A stretch of 38,365 bases of DNA, from positions 1-38,365 of the forward strand of contig CAILNX010000050.1 of assembly GCA_903835685.1 (NCBI GenBank), written 5' to 3'. The position numbers and the translations under genes are program-made. Origin of the DNA: an uncultured delta proteobacterium (GTDB taxonomy: Bacteria > Desulfobacterota > Desulfovibrionia > Desulfovibrionales > Desulfovibrionaceae). Below, in pieces: positions 5,072 to 38,365 of the stretch (positions are counted from its first letter, which is position 1; the number at the start of each line of letters is the position of its first letter). Under the pieces are notes generated by a model that was not told the DNA's origin, searched no databases, and was given only the letters and a program-made list of their open reading frames with translations.

Positions 5072-5131
5072 AGCGGCCTCCCGGAATCGGCCTGTCTTTC
5101 GCAAGAGCGCAAGAATAAGAAAGAATTATTC

Positions 5132-6079
5132 TTATTCTTCGTTCTGGTCTGGTCTTGTTTCGCGAACAGGACACTCGGGCGCGGTCTGCGAAAAAACCTC
5201 GGGCCAGTCCGGCTCCACCTCGACCGCGAATCCGGGCATCTCCAGATGCTGATGGTGCAGGCGCAAGGGGAAGGGCGGCTCTCCGGCCGGGCCGTACAGC
5301 TCGTCGCCCAGCAGGGCGTGGCCCAGGTCGGCCAGGTGAGCCCGGATCTGATGCCGCGCCCCGCGCTTGATGGTGGCCCGCACCAGGGTCAGGGTCCCGT
5401 GCTCCTGGATCAGGGCGGGCAGACCGGGCGGGGCGGGCAGGGGCTCCACCAGGGTGCGCCGGGTGGGGTCCGGGTCAGCCTCGCGCAGGACCCGGGTCTT
5501 TTTGCGTTTGACCGTGTCCAAGGCCCGGTCCAAAACAAGGGTCTCCCACAGGTCTCCCCGCACCAGGGCCAGGTAGTGCTTGCGCACCCGGCCCTCGTTC
5601 TCCCAGTTCCGGAAGGACTGAGCGGCCGGGTCGGCCAGGGCGGCCAGGACCAGGCCCGAGGTGGGGGTGTCCAGGCGGTTCAGGAGCAGGGGGCTTTGGT
5701 CCGGAAAGAGCCCGGGCAGGCAGGCCTCCAGGCTCGGCCCGGGTTTTCCGGCCAGGGCGGTGGTGGGCAGCCCGGCGGGCTTGTACAACGCGGCCCAGTC
5801 GCCCAGGCGGAGCACCAGACGCACCCCGGGGGCCAGGGCCGTGGGGGCCGCGACAGTCGCCAGGGACAATACCTGCCCGGCCCGGACCTTGCGGCCGGGG
5901 GGAGCCGGTCGGCCGTCGAGCCGGGCCTGGCCCGTTTCGATGAGCCGCCGCCGCAGGCTTAAGGAGGCCTCGGGGGTCAGGGCCAGGAGGGCCTTGTCCA
6001 GGCGCGCGCCGTCCATATCCTCTCCAAGCTGAAGCGCACGGCCCTCTCCGGCCTGGTTCATCTCGATCTTCTCGTCCAT
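5132..6079 (-). CDS. RluA-family pseudouridine synthase
   Basis: A 315-residue protein with an N-terminal S4 RNA-binding domain (about 22-75, ARLDKALLALTPE...SLRRRLIETGQARLDG) and an RluA catalytic domain. The catalytic aspartate lies in LLNRLDTPTSGLVL, equivalent to the family HRLDxxTSG. KHYLALVRG and RGARHQIRAHLADLGHALLGDELYG are also family landmarks. It isomerises specific uridines in rRNA or tRNA; the target position cannot be assigned. The first residue of the active-site motif is Asn rather than the common His. The start at 6079 is tentative (GGGAG lies 12 bases away); an ATG six codons in is an alternative. The gene is convergent with the PAS kinase and divergent from the PfkB gene. 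Confidence 0.9.
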   Translation of the reverse strand: MDEKIEMNQAGEGRALQLGEDMDGARLDKALLALTPEASLSLRRRLIETGQARLDGRPAPPGRKVRAGQVLSLATVAAPTALAPGVRLVLRLGDWAALYKPAGLPTTALAGKPGPSLEACLPGLFPDQSPLLLNRLDTPTSGLVLAALADPAAQSFRNWENEGRVRKHYLALVRGDLWETLVLDRALDTVKRKKTRVLREADPDPTRRTLVEPLPAPPGLPALIQEHGTLTLVRATIKRGARHQIRAHLADLGHALLGDELYGPAGEPPFPLRLHHQHLEMPGFAVEVEPDWPEVFSQTAPECPVRETRPDQNEE

Positions 6080-31512: not shown

Positions 31513-31711
31513 GGCATCCTCTTACTCGGGTATCGGCAGAGGCGCAACCCGGTTGATCACCCCATCTCCTGAAAGTAACCCGAAGGATATGACCCCCCAA
31601 TGTCCGTTTTCACTCGGGTGGGGTTGAACTGTTGGATGTTCAAAAATGACATATATTGTGGAGTGCTACAAGATTTAGCCGGTGTTCTGAAGCGCTTCCC
31701 AACCCGCACGG

Positions 31712-31787
31712 GCCTCGGCAAAAATCAGAATCATCGGACAGCGCGCGATTTCTGAAAATGTGTCCGATCTTGTGTCCAAATAAAAAA
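31712..31787 (+). repeat. Diverged direct repeat, copy A
   Basis: Begins GCCTCGGCAA and ends in a run of A. Its last 45 bases match copy B (32261-32338) at about 32 positions without gaps, and both can be read as a similar peptide (SARFLKMCPILCPNKK here). The surrounding gap 31513-31909 holds no gene other than this and the promoter of the RRM gene. It may be the tail of a decayed integrase gene (inference). Confidence 0.5.
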
Positions 31788-31909: not shown

Positions 31910-32176
31910 ATGGGTAAGTCTATTTATGTCGGTAATTTGCCTTTCACCTCCAGTGAGAATGATGTGCGTGACATGTTTACCGCGTACGGAGAAGTTCAGT
32001 CGGTGAACTTGATCATGGACCGTGAGACTGGTCGTCCCCGGGGCTTCGGTTTCGTGGAGATGTCTGAATCCGATGCTTCCAAGGCCATTCAGGAGCTGAA
32101 CGGCAAAGACATGGGTGGGCGTGCCCTCCGGGTCAATTTTGCTGAAGAGAAGCCCCAGCGTTCCAATCGTTACTAG
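31910..32176 (+). CDS. Small RRM RNA-binding protein
   Basis: An 88-residue protein consisting of one RNA recognition motif. RNP2 is IYVGNLPF at the N-terminus and RNP1 is RGFGFVEM at about 45-52; the aromatic residues that stack on RNA bases are kept. The C-terminus is a short basic tail (EEKPQRSNRY). Such proteins occur widely in cyanobacteria and deltaproteobacteria and are often cold- or stress-induced; the role here is inferred. AGGAG lies about nine bases before the ATG and a strong terminator follows, so it is a single-gene unit. It lies next to the tRNA-Glu attachment site. Confidence 0.95.
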   Translation: MGKSIYVGNLPFTSSENDVRDMFTAYGEVQSVNLIMDRETGRPRGFGFVEMSESDASKAIQELNGKDMGGRALRVNFAEEKPQRSNRY

Positions 32177-32225: not shown

Positions 32226-32260
32226 GTTTCTTCTGGTTCACTTCATCCATCGCGGCCTGA

Positions 32261-32338
32261 GCCTCGGCAACAGCCAGAAGCAGAGGAGGTCGGCGTATTT
32301 TTGGAAATTGTGCCCAATGGTGTGTCCGAACGAAAAAA
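32261..32338 (+). repeat. Diverged direct repeat, copy B
   Basis: Second copy of the repeat at 31712-31787, same orientation, also starting GCCTCGGCAA and ending in six A residues that overlap the T run of the tRNA terminator on the other strand. One reading frame gives SAYFWKLCPMVCPNEK, close to the copy A peptide. The two copies flank the RRM gene. Confidence 0.5.
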
Positions 32339-32362
32339 GGCCCCCGGATTGCTCCGAGGGCC
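32333..32362 (-). terminator. Terminator of the tRNA-Glu locus
   Basis: On the minus strand GGCCCTCGGA pairs with TCCGGGGGCC (one wobble, four-base loop) and is followed by six T residues. It begins 11 bases beyond the CCA end of the tRNA-Glu fragment and so is the original tRNA terminator. Confidence 0.88.
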
Positions 32363-32373
32363 TTGTTTTCACT

Positions 32374-32417
32374 TGGCGTCCCCAAGGGGATTTGAACCCC
32401 TGTCGCCGGCGTGAAAG
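32374..32417 (-). tRNA. tRNA-Glu 3' fragment (attachment site)
   Basis: Read on the minus strand, this is the 3' half of tRNA-Glu(UUC): anticodon loop CTTTCAC, right half of the anticodon stem GCCGG, variable loop, T arm AGGGG-TTCAAAT-CCCCT, acceptor strand TGGGGAC, discriminator G and encoded CCA. The left half of the anticodon stem, D arm and 5' acceptor strand are absent: the bases to the right (32418 on) cannot pair. Such 3' halves are left where tyrosine integrases insert elements into tRNA genes, with the intact tRNA at the far end. The T-arm and acceptor identity to tRNA-Glu of other bacteria is from memory of the E. coli gene. Confidence 0.88.
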
Positions 32418-32487
32418 AGCGACCGTAACGCCAAATAAGGCCGAATCCCACCGAGTTTTACTGGTTTTTCCGGCCAAACACCGAGCA

Positions 32488-32509
32488 AACCGTTTCCATA
32501 ACCGTTTCC
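32488..32509. repeat. Tandem direct repeat AACCGTTTCC
   Basis: Two exact copies of AACCGTTTCC (32488-32497 and 32500-32509), start to start 12 bases, about 70 bases inside the island from the tRNA fragment. Position and spacing of roughly one helical turn resemble integrase arm or excisionase binding sites (inference). Confidence 0.4.
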
Positions 32510-32606
32510 GCGTTTGGGTGCATACCTAACCGAAATGTATCTACGGCTGGATGGTGTCCAATTCATAAATAATCAGGTACCATCAACATAGCCGGTGGTA
32601 TAAGGA

Positions 32607-32623: not shown

Positions 32624-32903
32624 GTTCAGAAATTAAGAACGAAAAATTCTCCACGTTCGCCTCAAAAATTGAACGACGCGTTCGGTCTAAGTTGAAAATC
32701 TGTTGTTCCCAAAACGGTAGAACCTTTTCGGGGCATACCGTCAGAAGCAGTGGATTAACTACTGGAATTATGCTCAGGAGGGCAAAAAATGGATTATTAC
32801 CATCGATTCTTGTGACCCGGGACAGTAAAGCCTCCCGCGGCGAAAACCAGCTTCAAGCCGTCTTCAGCTTCTACCGTGAAGGCATTTGATCAAAGGAGTA
32901 TCC

Positions 32904-33191
32904 ATGCCTACCCTTACCAAATCAGCAATCGTAGACGCCATCTATGAAAGGACAGGCCGCCACCGGACAGAGATCAAGGAGTACGTTGATGCTCTTCTAG
33001 AAGTCATGATCAAAGTGTTAAAGAAGGACCATTCTCTCTTGTCCTGCGGGCTTGGAAAGCTTGAGGCTTATGGTAAGGAGCCTCGAAAGGGTCGGAATCC
33101 CCATACGGGTGAGACGATCACGCTAGCCGCGCGTAAGATCATAGTGTTTCGGCTCTCCAGAAAATTTAGGGCTGTGTTAAATCCAGAATAG
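32904..33191 (+). CDS. IHF/HU-like DNA-bending protein
   Basis: A 95-residue protein of the bacterial histone-like family, closest in pattern to the IHF alpha subunit: N-terminal helices (TLTKSAIVDAIYERTGRHRTEIKEYVDALLEVM), the turn LLSCGLGKLEAYGKEPRKG, and the DNA-intercalating arm motif GRNPHTGE followed by ITLAARKIIVFRLS. ATG 32904 is chosen because AAAGGAG lies right before it; the frame opens six codons earlier. IHF bends DNA at sigma-54 promoters and at integrase sites, and this copy sits at the island edge just before a sigma-54-activator-like gene. GC is intermediate. It could serve the element's recombination, the neighbour's transcription, or both. Confidence 0.9.
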   Translation: MPTLTKSAIVDAIYERTGRHRTEIKEYVDALLEVMIKVLKKDHSLLSCGLGKLEAYGKEPRKGRNPHTGETITLAARKIIVFRLSRKFRAVLNPE

Positions 33192-33467: not shown

Positions 33468-35102
33468 ATGGATGACAGAAAATTTGTAGTTACACCCGGT
33501 CTTGAAGACAGTGTAGTACTATTTCAGGTGTTGATTGATGAAGATAATTTCGAGCCTATTCTTATCGTTGGTGAGACTGGAGTTGGCAAATCTTTATTTC
33601 TAAAAGTGCTAGAACATTACTATAAACAGAATAAAAATAGCAAAAACGGCATTTTGGTTTCTGCAAATTGTGCACATTTTGGCGGCGGTTCGAGCGATTT
33701 AAATATTGCCCGTGCTGAATTGTTTGGGATAAATAGAGGTGCAATACATGGTATAAAGGATAGTAAGGGGACAAAAGACATAAAAGGATTGGTTGAGGCA
33801 GCAAATGGTGGTATCCTAGTCTTGGATGAAATAGGTGAACTGCCGCTAGAAGTTCAAGCGATGCTATTAACTTTTATAGAGACAGGAAAGTATAGAAGGG
33901 TCGGAGAGAGTACAGAGCGGATGGCAAGATGCCAAATTATTGGTTCTACAAATAATATAAGTAATTTAAGAGAAGACTTTTATTATAGGTTTACAGAGTT
34001 TGTGGTACCTCCAGTGCACAAGCGTAGAATTGATATAATATACTATATTTATGCATTTGATCACGATATACTGCGCCGACTTAACAGTTTTGATATGTTG
34101 TTGCTATTAACTTACAACTGGCCTGGAAATGTTCGTGAAATTTTCAATGTGTTGAAAATGTTTAGAAGAATACAAGATTTTGAATCAAAGAGCAAAACTA
34201 AGTTTACTATGAAAAGATTAAGGCATTTGCTAGAAGGGGCAAATGCTCCAGAAAATACAGATGAAATATCATTAATTTTTAGAAGAACAGATTTTTACAT
34301 AAAAGCAGTGGCATTGGTTGCAGAATTATGGGATACAGTAATTAGGGTTGTTGACATAGACTACATTAAGAAATTGTTTGAAAAAAGCATTGTTAATATA
34401 TGTCCTGATGTTTGTTATTACAAGTTTAAGTCAAGAATTGATAAGTTATTTTCTATAAACGAATATTATAGTAGTAAATTTGGCGTTGATACGTATGATA
34501 ATACAATATTTACCCATGGAATGAGAATGGATTTGAAAAGATTTTGTTCTGTTTTTGATAGAGATGTGTGCGGTAAAATGCATTTGTTAGAATTAAATAC
34601 GGCAATGCTTGTTAAGGGGCATAAGCGTGCACTTGATAAGAAATTTTTAACTTTGCCATCTCCGGAAGAAATAAAGATGTTGGGAATGATATATGGTGTC
34701 CATGTGCGAGCAGATTATGCAAATCTTGAGGAGTTTAGGCGCCACCTGCTGGAACAATATTATGAGTTAAATAAAAGTAGTATGCTTGGCAGCATAATAG
34801 AGGCGTATGTGCACGCGTTGATAAAAGATATTCACTTAGACAAAATTGCAGATGATATTAACAGCATGCGTGCTTCTGTCTATAATAGTCAATTTGACGT
34901 GTTAAAAGAAGTAGATACCAACAGCAATAAAGGGCGAAGTGTTTCAGACGAAATAATAATAGATACGATGGAAAAATTAAATAATGTTAAATCTCATGTT
35001 GCAAAGAGTCTTGGAATTTCAAACCAAACTGTGTACAATAGGTTAAAGTTGATTGAAAAAAAGCATGGCAAGCAATATCAATGGAGTGAAAAGAGGAAAT
35101 GA
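33468..35102 (+). CDS. Sigma-54-activator-like AAA+ protein with altered GAFTGA loop
   Basis: A 544-residue protein that begins directly with the AAA+ domain; no receiver, GAF or other sensor precedes it. Walker A is GETGVGKS (about 35-42), Walker B LVLDEIGE (about 117-124), sensor I STNN, arginine-finger region REDFYYRF, and sensor II WPGNVREI (about 218-225). The loop that contacts sigma-54, normally GAFTGA, reads GAIHGI (about 91-96). A long middle region (about 250-480) is not recognised. The C-terminus has a Fis-type helix-turn-helix (HVAKSLGISNQTVYNRLKLI). ATG 33468 follows an AGGTGG; a GTG four codons earlier is the alternative. Very AT-rich. It may regulate island genes, possibly not through sigma-54. 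Confidence 0.85.
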   Translation: MDDRKFVVTPGLEDSVVLFQVLIDEDNFEPILIVGETGVGKSLFLKVLEHYYKQNKNSKNGILVSANCAHFGGGSSDLNIARAELFGINRGAIHGIKDSKGTKDIKGLVEAANGGILVLDEIGELPLEVQAMLLTFIETGKYRRVGESTERMARCQIIGSTNNISNLREDFYYRFTEFVVPPVHKRRIDIIYYIYAFDHDILRRLNSFDMLLLLTYNWPGNVREIFNVLKMFRRIQDFESKSKTKFTMKRLRHLLEGANAPENTDEISLIFRRTDFYIKAVALVAELWDTVIRVVDIDYIKKLFEKSIVNICPDVCYYKFKSRIDKLFSINEYYSSKFGVDTYDNTIFTHGMRMDLKRFCSVFDRDVCGKMHLLELNTAMLVKGHKRALDKKFLTLPSPEEIKMLGMIYGVHVRADYANLEEFRRHLLEQYYELNKSSMLGSIIEAYVHALIKDIHLDKIADDINSMRASVYNSQFDVLKEVDTNSNKGRSVSDEIIIDTMEKLNNVKSHVAKSLGISNQTVYNRLKLIEKKHGKQYQWSEKRK

Positions 35103-35195: not shown

Positions 35196-36234
35196 GGATC
35201 TGTTTTCGTTGGCTGTTGACGTTCTCTTTGTTTTTTTCAATACTGTAACTAGCAATGAGTACATATGCAAACCAAAGAATTCAAGAATCTACCTGCCGCA
35301 CTCGATGGGTTAAGCACAGAGCAAAAAACTATTATTAAAACTGCAGTTTGAGGAAGTTTTGATCTTTCTATTGTCTTAAATATCATCGAGTCAAACGCGG
35401 CGCAAAATCGTGTATGTTCTCATTGTGCATCGAAAAAAATTAAAAAATGGGGTACTTCGCTTGGTCTCCAGCGCTATCGTTGCTTTGAATGCCGCAAAAC
35501 TTTCAATGCGCTCACTGGGACGCCCTTGGTCAATCTCAGGAAAATAGACCGTGGCTTGCCTACGCCAAGGGATTGCATAATGGCAAAAGCATCCGCGCGT
35601 GCGCCAAAGACTGTGGCATTGCAGTGCCCATGTCCTTTCGCTGGCGGTATCGCTTTCTCAAGGCGGATACAACCGATAAGTCGCTGAAACTTCATGGAAT
35701 CACAGAAGCAGATAAAACCTACATTCTGGAATCTCGGAAGGGGAGTTGCGAACTGAGCCGCCCCGCCTGGAAACGAGGCGGAAAGGCCACCAAACGAGGC
35801 ATTTCCAGTGAGCAGATTCCCATTCTGGTGGCCCGTGACCGCTTTGGGCGCACCACGGACGGTGTTCTGCCTGACTTGTCGGCCAAGTCCATCAATTGCT
35901 CATCGGTGGTGTGGTCACGAAGGAAAACGTTGTGTGCTTTGATGGTGGCAACGCCTTGTGGGGACTCGTGAACAGCCAGAGCCCCCGACAAGTTGATTCC
36001 GTTAGACAAGTTCACCCACGAAAAAGAGCCCCTGTATCATGTCCAGAACGTCAACGCCTACCACAGCCGATTCAAGCATTGGATGCGACGATTCAATGGA
36101 GCTGCCACTAAATACCTTCCCAGCTATCTCGGTTGGCGGCGCATTTTTGAACATCCAGAACTCACAACCCCGGCCCGGATGGTCTCAGGCGCATTGGGTC
36201 GGAGGCTTTATCAATAGTAAATGGAAACAGAGCC
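35196..36234 (+). mobile_element. IS1595-like insertion sequence, decayed
   Basis: A 1039-base element bounded by 24-base inverted repeats: left GGATCTGTTTTCGTTGGCTG... (35196-35219) and right, on the other strand, GGCTCTGTTTCCATTTACTA... (36234-36211), 18 of 24 positions equal. The flanking 8-mers AATTACGT (35188-35195) and AATCGCGT (36235-36242) agree at 6 of 8 positions, as expected of an old 8-base target duplication typical of IS1595. It lies right behind the AAA+ gene and carries one broken transposase gene. Confidence 0.85.
35265..36217 (+). pseudogene. IS1595-family transposase, multiply frameshifted
   Basis: Reading across frames gives a whole ISXO2/IS1595-type transposase: helical start (MQTKEFKNLPAALDGL), zinc ribbon (CSHCASKKIKKWG...YRCFECRKTF), the helix SIRACAKDCGIAV..SFRWRYRF, the DDE core with first Asp in GITEADKTY (usually ADETY), KRGGKATKRGIS, VARDRFGRTTDGVLP, the second Asp in VCFDGGNALWG, then [20 protein letters not shown] and [12 protein letters not shown]. 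It is disabled by a TGA at 35349-35351 and by frame changes near 35540, 35895 and 35995. It is inactive; any movement would need a transposase in trans. Confidence 0.85.
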
Positions 36235-36403
36235 AATCGCGTTCGCAACTGTTAAATATAATCGAGCCCACTTTTTAGATTTCCACCAATTTTGACTTAT
36301 TGCAGAGACCTCACTAGAGATAGGCAGCTCCGCGACGTAGCCAAGTCATGCGGTATCCAACCCGTGAATAAAAGAGTGATCAACCGTCGCCCAAGAGTCT
36401 CGC

Positions 36404-36574: not shown

Positions 36575-37495
36575 TTATAACCCATTGGCAGTCTTCAAAC
36601 GTTGAGTCATTCGAAGTAACCGTGCCGATCTCCTCCATCGTGAATCCTTGCTGCGATATAAGCCACAAGTGTTTTGAGTTTTTAATGGTACAGTATTATC
36701 ACACAATGCATTTAATCTTTTGAACGGATCTTTGTCACATAGTAAATCGTGTAGACATTCATTTGGTTGAAGCCTAGATTCCTGCGCTTTAATAAGTTTG
36801 ATAATCATCGTTGGAGTAATGGATATCCCCTTTGCAATTACTCTTTGGACAGTTTGTTTGTCAACTCCTACTATGCGTGCATTTTCTATCCTAACTAACG
36901 CAAGTGCAGTGCCGACAGATAAGCGCGTTTCCCAAGAAGATGGTTTGTCTTTGTCTACATATATTTCGAATTTTGTTAAAAACTTTCCAATGGGGTCTTC
37001 ATCATCTTTTGATGGCTTAATAGTTTTGCAAATTTCGATTATCATAGATTTTTTTAGGTGGAGATGGTTTTCTATGCTACGTATCGAAGCAAGCCGTTCA
37101 TAATCTTGTCGTGTCCGTGGAATTATTTTTATATTTTCCCTTGCCCATTTTGTCCAAGGTTTTTTTTCACGTTTTGCAGCTAGCTTCATCATGTTTAACA
37201 TCAAACCAACTTTGAATATATGTTTTGATTGCGATATTTCAACTTTATCTAGCGAAGAAGTGTGGTCATCAAATGCGTTTTCCAGGTAATCTTTGAGCAT
37301 TGATAGACTATAGTCGTTCTTTCCACCATATATAATTTCTTCAATCTCTTCCCATGGACATTGTTCATTATTTGGTTGTTCATCGTCAAGCCGCTCACGT
37401 ATAACAGATATACAACTGTCGCAATCGCAATTTGCCTGGGCTGGATAGATATCCTCATCAAATATGGTCTCATCAAATATTTCATCAATGTTCAT
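36575..37495 (-). CDS. Regulator-like protein, DUF3102-like middle region, function unknown
   Basis: About 306 residues, AT-rich. ATG 37495 is preferred to the in-frame ATG at 37501 because GGAGG then lies at the right distance (six bases). The N-terminus is acidic with a CDCDSC cluster (about 23-28) that could bind a metal. The middle (about 95-160: VGLMLNMMKLAAKREKKPWTKWARENI) has the look of DUF3102-type proteins from plasmids and islands. The region VGVDKQTVQRVIAKGISITP (about 210-230) could be a helix-turn-helix. The last 30 residues are Arg-rich (SRWRRSARLLRMTQRL) and more GC-rich, perhaps a fused tail from the DNA behind it. Role unknown; DNA binding is inference. Confidence 0.6.
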   Translation of the reverse strand: MNIDEIFDETIFDEDIYPAQANCDCDSCISVIRERLDDEQPNNEQCPWEEIEEIIYGGKNDYSLSMLKDYLENAFDDHTSSLDKVEISQSKHIFKVGLMLNMMKLAAKREKKPWTKWARENIKIIPRTRQDYERLASIRSIENHLHLKKSMIIEICKTIKPSKDDEDPIGKFLTKFEIYVDKDKPSSWETRLSVGTALALVRIENARIVGVDKQTVQRVIAKGISITPTMIIKLIKAQESRLQPNECLHDLLCDKDPFKRLNALCDNTVPLKTQNTCGLYRSKDSRWRRSARLLRMTQRLKTANGL

Positions 37496-37765
37496 GATCA
37501 TCCTCCATGCGTGTCAATTGGTTTGGTTGAATTTTACCATTCTCCCGAGTCAGTAATGTGATTGATGCGGCACTATGAAAAATCTGTACCTAACAATTAA
37601 AAATAAATGTTTTCAGTTGATTGAATTAGAAGCGGCCGCATGGGTTGATTTGATGCGCACAATTTTTTAGTGATTTGGTCCAATTAAATATAAACTTAAT
37701 ATCCATACATATCTTTACTTGATATAAAACCAAGAATGGGAGGAACCTCGCTGGCGTGAAGATGA
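37496..37765. other. AT-rich gap without a gene
   Basis: About 270 bases of AT-rich DNA between the regulator-like gene and the adhesin pseudogene. It should hold the promoter of the minus-strand gene, but no convincing boxes, no sigma-54 type site and no repeat were found. Composition jumps to GC-rich at about 37750, a further mosaic joint. Confidence 0.5.
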
Positions 37766-38327
37766 TATGCTCATCGTTCATATGCGCAGGGGGAGGTATA
37801 TGTCCCGGACCCCGCCTGTGGCCTCACGTTCATATTCGACGCCACCGATCTGGTCGATTTTGTCACTGTTCGTCTGGATAATGGAGTGGTGCATACCGAC
37901 CATGTTGGCGGGGTGCTCTTCTCCCTATTGAATGGAGACCCGTAGTACACGGTCCAGGCCGGTCTGGTACTGGCTGGAAAAACCCTTTTCTTTGACGGGG
38001 CCCACGTAGGGGGTGGCGCTCTGACCTTGGACGCCCACACCGTCAGTCCACCTCACCACCTCATCCTGGATGACCCGGACTCCAGTTCGATTTCGGTGCT
38101 CGGCGAGCCCGGGGATGACACCTTCAACATGTACGGCCACATGTTTTCTTCAGACTCACATAACTGGCAAAAGCTTCCTGGTGGCCGCAGGACAGACCAC
38201 GACCTTGTACGCCTCGGCCTTGCACACACACAACCTGACCTGGGACGGTTCGGCAGCCTTGGGCGGTTTCTCGATCATCGCTGGGGACGGCGACGACGTC
38301 CTGACCGGCGGCCAGGGCCGGAATTAG
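37766..38327 (+). pseudogene. RTX-type (haemolysin-repeat) surface protein remnant
   Basis: Reading plus-strand frame 2 from 37766 gives DPACGLTFIFDATDLVDF and VTVRLDNGVVHTDHVGG, broken by TAG at 37943-37945, then LILDDPDSSSISVLGEPGDDTF; near 38150-38165 the frame shifts and continues as ITGKSFLVAAGQ, LTWDGSAALGGF and IIAGDGDDVLTGGQG before a stop at 38325. The last part is an RTX nonapeptide unit (GDGDDVLTGGQG), the calcium-binding repeat of type I secreted adhesins and toxins. No start with a ribosome site is seen. It is GC-rich like the chromosome, unlike the AT-rich genes before it. It is a broken piece of a large secreted protein. Confidence 0.7.
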
Positions 38328-38365
38328 AGCAGTCAGAATGAGCGGGTTGCTCACCACCATGCCCA

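Follow-up and report, generated by a model that had tools for sequence, protein, structure and literature searches.

Some tyrosine integrases reportedly use the anticodon loop of a tRNA gene as their cutting site, as Williams is said to have described in 2002. Islander describes a type of genomic island in which a tRNA gene is split by the integrase and made whole again by the island, and a displaced 3' fragment marks the far end; the passages cited here count 125 tandem arrays with two or more islands and 4 with three or more, and place the highest number of islands, 19, in Desulfovibrio magneticus RS-1 (PMC4383910). In the ssrA arrays of Dehalococcoides, as outlined in the part of the source used here, many islands follow one another behind a single RNA gene, each delimited by a short duplicate of that gene's 3' end, and the arrays include islands without integration genes of their own (PMC3146451). 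The excerpts used of two further sources treat tRNA fragments as integration scars (PMC9897764) and describe a tyrosine integrase that cuts at the tRNA anticodon loop (PMC8371274).

The DNA analyzed here (the window) is a stretch of 38,365 nucleotides that makes up the entire contig C50 of a genome assembled into 65 contigs (3.94 Mb, 97.6% complete). It contains a broken tRNA-Glu copy, which is probably a scar where mobile islands inserted successively into one tRNA gene; such serial insertion is a well-known process, and the scar itself is of a textbook kind. With the Islander-type islands, so far as the cited passages describe them, the locus shares the logic of a split tRNA, a restored gene and a displaced fragment. 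It differs from them in three respects: the intact gene is on another contig than the fragment, the integrase beside it is truncated, and the ends are matched here by paired motifs, which the Islander passages cited do not bring up, nor do they speak of arm sites. The Dehalococcoides arrays, in the part of the source used, differ from the window in their target (tmRNA), the length of their repeat (20 bp) and their serine recombinase (PMC3146451). Our survey found no literature joining Desulfovibrio, genomic island, integrase and tRNA-Glu.

A displaced tRNA-Glu 3' half and its intact partner

The fragment lies at positions 32374 to 32417 on the minus strand and is the 3' half of a tRNA-Glu(UUC), which we read as the displaced target fragment and attR core. 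It is identical at 44/44 positions to bases 35 to 78 of an intact tRNA-Glu(UUC) of the same genome (BLASTN, 32417-32374 minus, E value of 1.3e-18), starting at base 1 of the anticodon loop (CTTTCAC) and ending at CCA. The intact gene follows a tRNA-Gln(CUG) on contig C20 (both within C20:52296-52451). The identity runs 5 bases beyond CCA (49/49), giving an exact direct repeat of 49 bases common to the window (32369 to 32417, minus strand) and C20:52408-52456. Beside the fragment the 5' half of the tRNA is missing and other DNA stands in its place; ARAGORN called zero tRNAs on the window, and an Rfam search of it at gathering thresholds returned 0 matches. Chance cannot explain the fragment. 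As with the integrases that cut at the anticodon loop, the block of identity begins at anticodon loop base 1, as expected for a 7-bp overlap, although what the window displays is an edge of identity and not a mapped crossover position.

The sequence-only reading of this DNA had called a minus-strand tRNA-Glu 3' half from the anticodon loop to CCA, which the full identity to the intact gene bears out. It had also seen the 5' half replaced by unrelated DNA with a tandem direct repeat, and this stands as well, as the 5' half is absent and the repeat GGAAACGGTT-AT-GGAAACGGTT is present. Its description of the flank as AT-richer applies only further to the right, where G+C falls to 0.30-0.37 at about 33.25 to 35.25 kb, and not around the fragment, where it is 0.51. 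Since the G+C on the left is already 0.47-0.54 from about 30.5 kb, the fragment itself is not a composition step.

C20 breaks off 376 bases past the intact tRNA-Glu(UUC). Behind the gene, in convergent orientation, it encodes the last 59 amino acids of a tyrosine integrase; the frame is 77% identical over 61 amino acids to an integrase of genome G191, and the 59-amino-acid piece alone matched 0 Pfam families. The truncating sequence, which resembles the end of an insertion sequence, also occurs close to the ends of two other contigs, C44 and C60. No assembled contig joins C20 to C50; to the right of the fragment, C50 continues for about 5.9 kb before it stops, and none of the 20 Phage_integrase matches in the genome lies on C50. 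The expectation from the sequence had been a tRNA-Glu island lying to the right, ended by an intact tRNA-Glu with an integrase gene beside it. The island itself is well supported by the intact pair of tRNA genes, the integrase C terminus and the 49-base repeat. As for its end, the intact tRNA-Glu and the integrase beside it on C20 mean that the prediction holds at the level of the genome: the integrase is truncated, and the intact copy of the target gene is present but on a different contig from the fragment, a placement consistent with its lying rightwards.

Integrases and paired repeats at related islands

Matches to the 59-amino-acid integrase stretch were found in 58 of the 297 genomes of the order, the genome studied here included. 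A separate set of 58 other genomes drawn for comparison comprises none of the same genus, so that an empty site was not seen. Among the 30 loci with the best matches to the integrase stretch (that of the genome studied here among them), the integrase faces the 3' end of a tRNA-Glu at 25, where the tRNA-Glu is an intact gene in 22 cases and a fragment in 3, and it faces none at 5. A second query, made of three integrases from islands with the arm type of the window, gave 41 loci in a collection of genome contigs, mostly labeled as sulphate-reducer and other deltaproteobacterial genomes. Two of the 41 were dropped for having fewer than 10 bases of downstream sequence. At the 39 loci that remained, the relatives of the GGAAACGGTT-type integrase lie next to an intact tRNA-Glu in 27 cases and a tRNA-Glu fragment in 2 (29/39 together), with 4 beside tRNA-Asp, 1 beside tRNA-Val and 5 beside none. 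From the genes that these integrases adjoin, we read the group as a putative tRNA-Glu specialist clade.

A near-full-length integrase of the GGAAACGGTT type was not found among the PF00589 loci of the window's own genome. The best of these loci reaches 46-47% identity over about 360 amino acids and adjoins tRNA-Asp, and the short C20 piece reaches 53-54% over 38-54 amino acids; the integrase side of the GGAAACGGTT element would fall in an assembly gap. For an array, Islander counts an integrase per member, and the assembled sequence here contains no GGAAACGGTT-type integrase and none of any type on C50.

The intervals between tRNA and integrase, together with the DNA ahead of displaced fragments, first suggested a pair of repeats of about 10 bases. 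We compiled a table of 85 tRNA-Glu sites (45 intact genes, those without islands included, and 40 fragments) from 24 genomes, selected for an integrase or a tRNA-Glu site previously detected in them. A shuffle test was passed at p<=0.05 by 25/45 stretches after intact tRNAs, 11/38 after fragments and 23/40 before fragments, against 2/80 control stretches taken 300-430 bases further on (2/85 downstream stretches and 5/85 control stretches were too short for the test). The spacing of the pair is mostly 12-13 and its place is mostly 36-43 bases after CCA or 99-134 bases ahead of the fragment, and the sequence of the pair varies between islands.

Both ends of one island appear to tend to carry the same pair sequence. 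We compared 23 end pairs, which are all the consecutive pairs on the same contig and strand that span no more than 150 kb and have a fragment as their second member, and which are not all independent because some genomes are close relatives (G133/G135, G082/G101). Their summed similarity is 638, against 362 +- 31 for shuffled ends, and 0/1000 shuffles reach 638. The background fraction is <=0.1 in 16/23 end pairs and above 0.1 in 7/23, four of those seven starting at a fragment; where the first member is an intact tRNA, 15/18 match at a background fraction of <=0.1. End similarity also tracks integrase identity (Spearman 0.49, 0/2000 permutations, n=17), the 17 integrases being those left from the 25 tRNA-Glu loci once L070, with its truncated integrase, and L085 had been excluded beforehand and six proved to have no frame of sufficient length. 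A complete analogue is found in G048, from another family of the order, where a 25.2-kb island in tRNA-Glu(UUC) carries GGAAACGGTTTTGGAAACGGTT at both ends in the predicted layout. Arm-type sites of an integrase would be expected to behave in this way, and the pair is probably the arm-type site of the integrase, which would bind it through its N-terminal domain. The rule of end pairing was not found in the parts of the literature surveyed, and we make no claim that it is unpublished.

The proposed island end and its cargo to the right

To the right of the fragment, the tandem pair GGAAACGGTT-AT-GGAAACGGTT (32488 to 32509, minus strand) is proposed to form the integrase arm-type sites of an island that extends rightwards. 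A pattern search at <=2 mismatches gave this as the only match in the genome, with 1 match also for the backward control pattern, and the pair is without a partner in the assembly. In other genomes, a near-identical pair stands at both ends of the G048 island, and the integrase-side pairs nearest to that of the window are those of G135 (score 44), G133 (42), G048 (42) and G001:C90 (38), the next reaching 24. The stretch between the arm pair and the crossover (32418 to 32487, minus strand) aligns, as a putative island-side end, with the ends in G191, G048, G133 and G135 (...CTCGGTGGNATTCGGCCT...GTCGCT), and positions 32423-32510 are 76% identical to G191 over 89 columns. The end from G276, also part of the alignment, has no more than a variant of the pair in common with these. 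A comparison of the cargo of the window island with the fetched stretches of the arrays in G048, G191, G133 and G135 gave only this 89-column match to the G191 end.

That the fragment and the intact tRNA bound one and the same island, as had been proposed from the sequence, is not what the end repeats indicate: the window pair and the C20 pair GTGGGTACC differ, with a score of 12 that is reached by 110/119 background comparisons. When the pair on contig C54 is compared with the attR at C24:753, the two match with a score of 32, a value that 1/119 background comparisons attain. The C20 pair is also without a partner elsewhere in the genome, the search having matched C20 itself only. The difference between the window pair and the C20 pair indicates that probably at least two islands are stacked, and a single junction of two stacked islands, missing from the assembly, would explain why neither pair has a partner. 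Together with the left side of the fragment, three differing pairs are found at tRNA-Glu(UUC) ends, namely GTGGGTACC on C20, GGAAACGGTT to the right in the window and a decayed, GGACACA-like pair to its left. The chromosome of G191 has an array of this kind, in which a GGTGGGTAGC pair and the integrase matched by the C20 piece lie beside an intact gene and are followed by further fragments, one of them 147 kb on and preceded by GGAAACGGTTATGGAAACGGTT. In this array two of the three steps to later fragments, and one more in G191, are unpaired, which suggests that such stacks are eroded.

A single island could instead run from the window fragment to the intact C20 tRNA-Glu, the terminator being native and the arm pairs having come to differ through decay or rearrangement at one end. 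The 49-base repeat fits this, and the 7/23 positional end pairs of relatives that also mismatch (background fraction >0.1) mean that a mismatch of ends is no proof of two elements. We nevertheless regard a single island as improbable, since the C20 and window pairs are both well preserved and simply different, the great majority of pairs that start at an intact tRNA (the 15/18 given above) do match, and the terminator and tail to the left of the fragment match the integrase-side end of an element on C54.

Near the island end, the window encodes an IHF/HU-like DNA-binding protein (32901 to 33191, plus strand; PF00216, E value of 9.2e-22, below the NCBIfam IHF cut-offs). The predicted cargo continues with a sigma-54-activator-like AAA+ regulator with a Fis-type HTH (33468 to 35102, plus strand; PF00158, PF02954), matched at E<=1e-60 in 1/297 genomes, its own, and with a 308-amino-acid protein of no known family (36575 to 37501, minus strand; 0 Pfam and 0 NCBIfam matches at E<=0.01). 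A search for relatives of the latter gave 33 pattern stretches in the genome-contig collection, none of them confirmed as a relative. By eye, broken remnants resembling a zinc-ribbon IS transposase are seen at 35300-36300, and a broken gene ending in calcium-binding-repeat-like sequence at 37750-38365. The last 202 bases of the window are a repeat identical to C45:1-201.

Such broken genes to the right of the fragment (by eye), and an integrase of the matching type that was not found in the assembly, would also fit a fragment that is the isolated relic of a deleted island or a partial duplication of the tRNA gene, with right-hand DNA unrelated to the C20 element and a gap that holds no island. 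Relics do persist in this genome, as the displaced tRNA-Glu fragments on contig C24 (at 753, 3022 and about 4591) indicate. Against this, the fragment matches the intact gene at 100% identity for 49 bases, the arm architecture is kept at the island end, and AT-rich cargo follows rightwards with a regulator that, at the threshold given, was matched in its own genome only among the 297. An isolated relic thus seems to us a poor candidate.

The left side and a probable history of the tRNA-Glu(UUC) gene

After the fragment, a G+C-rich hairpin with a T-run (about 32333 to 32364, minus strand; by eye) forms a putative terminator that resembles the one after tRNA-Glu(CUC) on contig C54, and fragment and terminator together are 83% identical to C54:4553-4641. 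On C54 (locus L064, 2459-4597), a complete integrase frame and a GGACACA pair lie behind tRNA-Lys-tRNA-Glu(CUC). The homology of the window to the integrase-side end of this C54 element covers 32255 to 32369 (minus strand; 77% over 115 bases), and these 115 bases comprise the terminator, a decayed CGGACACA-type pair and a tail. The decayed pair, CGGACACACCATTGGGCACA (32309 to 32328, minus strand), aligns to CGGACACAAGACCGGACACA on C54 and may be read as the arm pair of an older element; on its own, this GGACACA-like pair is not significant (shuffle fraction of 0.64). A second C54-type end copy with a GGACACA pair, lacking a tRNA fragment, is found at 31703 to 31787 (minus strand; 78% over 86 bases), and another follows the C24:3022 fragment (74% over 94 query bases).

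The same C54 interval also holds a second IHF/HU-like gene (by eye; 26% to that of the window). In a different lineage, a Syntrophaceae genome (L228, about 5110-5300) has the pair CGGACACAAGACCGGA beside tRNA-Glu, with letters as on C54. The C24 fragments (locus L062) follow one another within 4 kb, are increasingly decayed and each have a terminator-like stretch after them; repeated integration events at tRNA-Glu(CUC) probably left them behind as relics. In the window, a gene for an RRM RNA-binding protein (31910 to 32176, plus strand; PF00076, E value of 1.2e-21) separates the two C54-type tails. This gene was considered as a synteny marker for the tRNA-Gln-tRNA-Glu locus of relatives and rejected, as there was no co-location of RRM and tRNA outside the window among the matches listed.

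In the standard model, DNA on the integrase side of the crossover belongs to the element. As the stretch on C54 is found to the island side of the crossover, it is element DNA by this model. As the terminator to the left of the fragment and its surroundings match this integrase-side end, the left side is probably the relic of an older element. The terminator appears more likely to be element-borne than native, which would make the fragment the seam between two elements. Two interpretations made from the sequence lose ground here: the evidence leans against a native terminator, given the 115-base stretch that shares 77% identity with the integrase-side end on C54, and the C54-type end homology, with its second copy at 31703-31787, speaks against a left side of plain chromosome.

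It can still be argued that tRNA-Glu genes natively have this terminator and tail downstream, that the region was duplicated between isoacceptor loci, and that ordinary chromosome lies to the left, a reading that bears on the left side alone and is compatible with others. The stretch is indeed present at both isoacceptor loci (C50 and C54), and two loci of G048 (C14 and C121:86680) share sequence in a similar way. In C54, however, the stretch is on the integrase side of the crossover, where the standard model has element DNA, and the GGACACA pair of C54 recurs at the C24 attR. A further argument against it comes from contig C28 of genome G010, where the terminator and then the GGACACA pair stand between tRNA-Glu(CUC) and an integrase C terminus 60% identical to that of C54 (the frame has one TAG). 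On balance, we consider a native downstream region unlikely.

The explanation that we favor, and hold to be likely, is an island-end scar in a serially used tRNA-Glu(UUC) gene, the fragment being a seam inside a stack. On this view, a tyrosine integrase specific for tRNA-Glu would have inserted a genomic island into tRNA-Glu(UUC) at its anticodon loop, and the fragment would be the attR scar of that island; each incoming island would supply its own tRNA 3' half, restoring an intact gene on the integrase side, and the old 3' half would be displaced to the far end of the island. The gene was probably used several times in this genome. The newest element would be the one beside the intact C20 tRNA, which has GTGGGTACC as its arm pair and whose integrase is truncated by an IS-like end. 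Another element, marked by the GGAAACGGTT pair, would end at the window fragment and extend to the right. To the left of the fragment, the terminator, the decayed GGACACA pair and the tail resemble the integrase-side end of an older element of the GGACACA type, which would be similar to the one now in tRNA-Glu(CUC) on C54. We infer the order of insertion and the path across the contig gap, as we do the binding of the pair by the integrase N-terminal domain.

The end-pair rule, a repeat pair of ~10 bp, mostly 12-13 bases apart and often about 40 bases past the restored tRNA and about 100-130 before the displaced fragment, would provide a sequence test for matching ends when an assembly is fragmented and its islands are split between contigs, and from it one can predict the integrase that acts on a given set of ends. 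It is possible, and we propose this only tentatively, that a large clade of Desulfobacterota integrases specific for tRNA-Glu, and sometimes tRNA-Asp, combines a fixed target with diversified arm pairs, which would act as a private end code for each island and allow stacking without confusion of ends at excision; one subfamily would bring its own terminator for the restored tRNA gene, and the window would show a stack of three layers, legible from these codes. To a specialist, what may be useful in the finding is the end code and the element-borne terminator.
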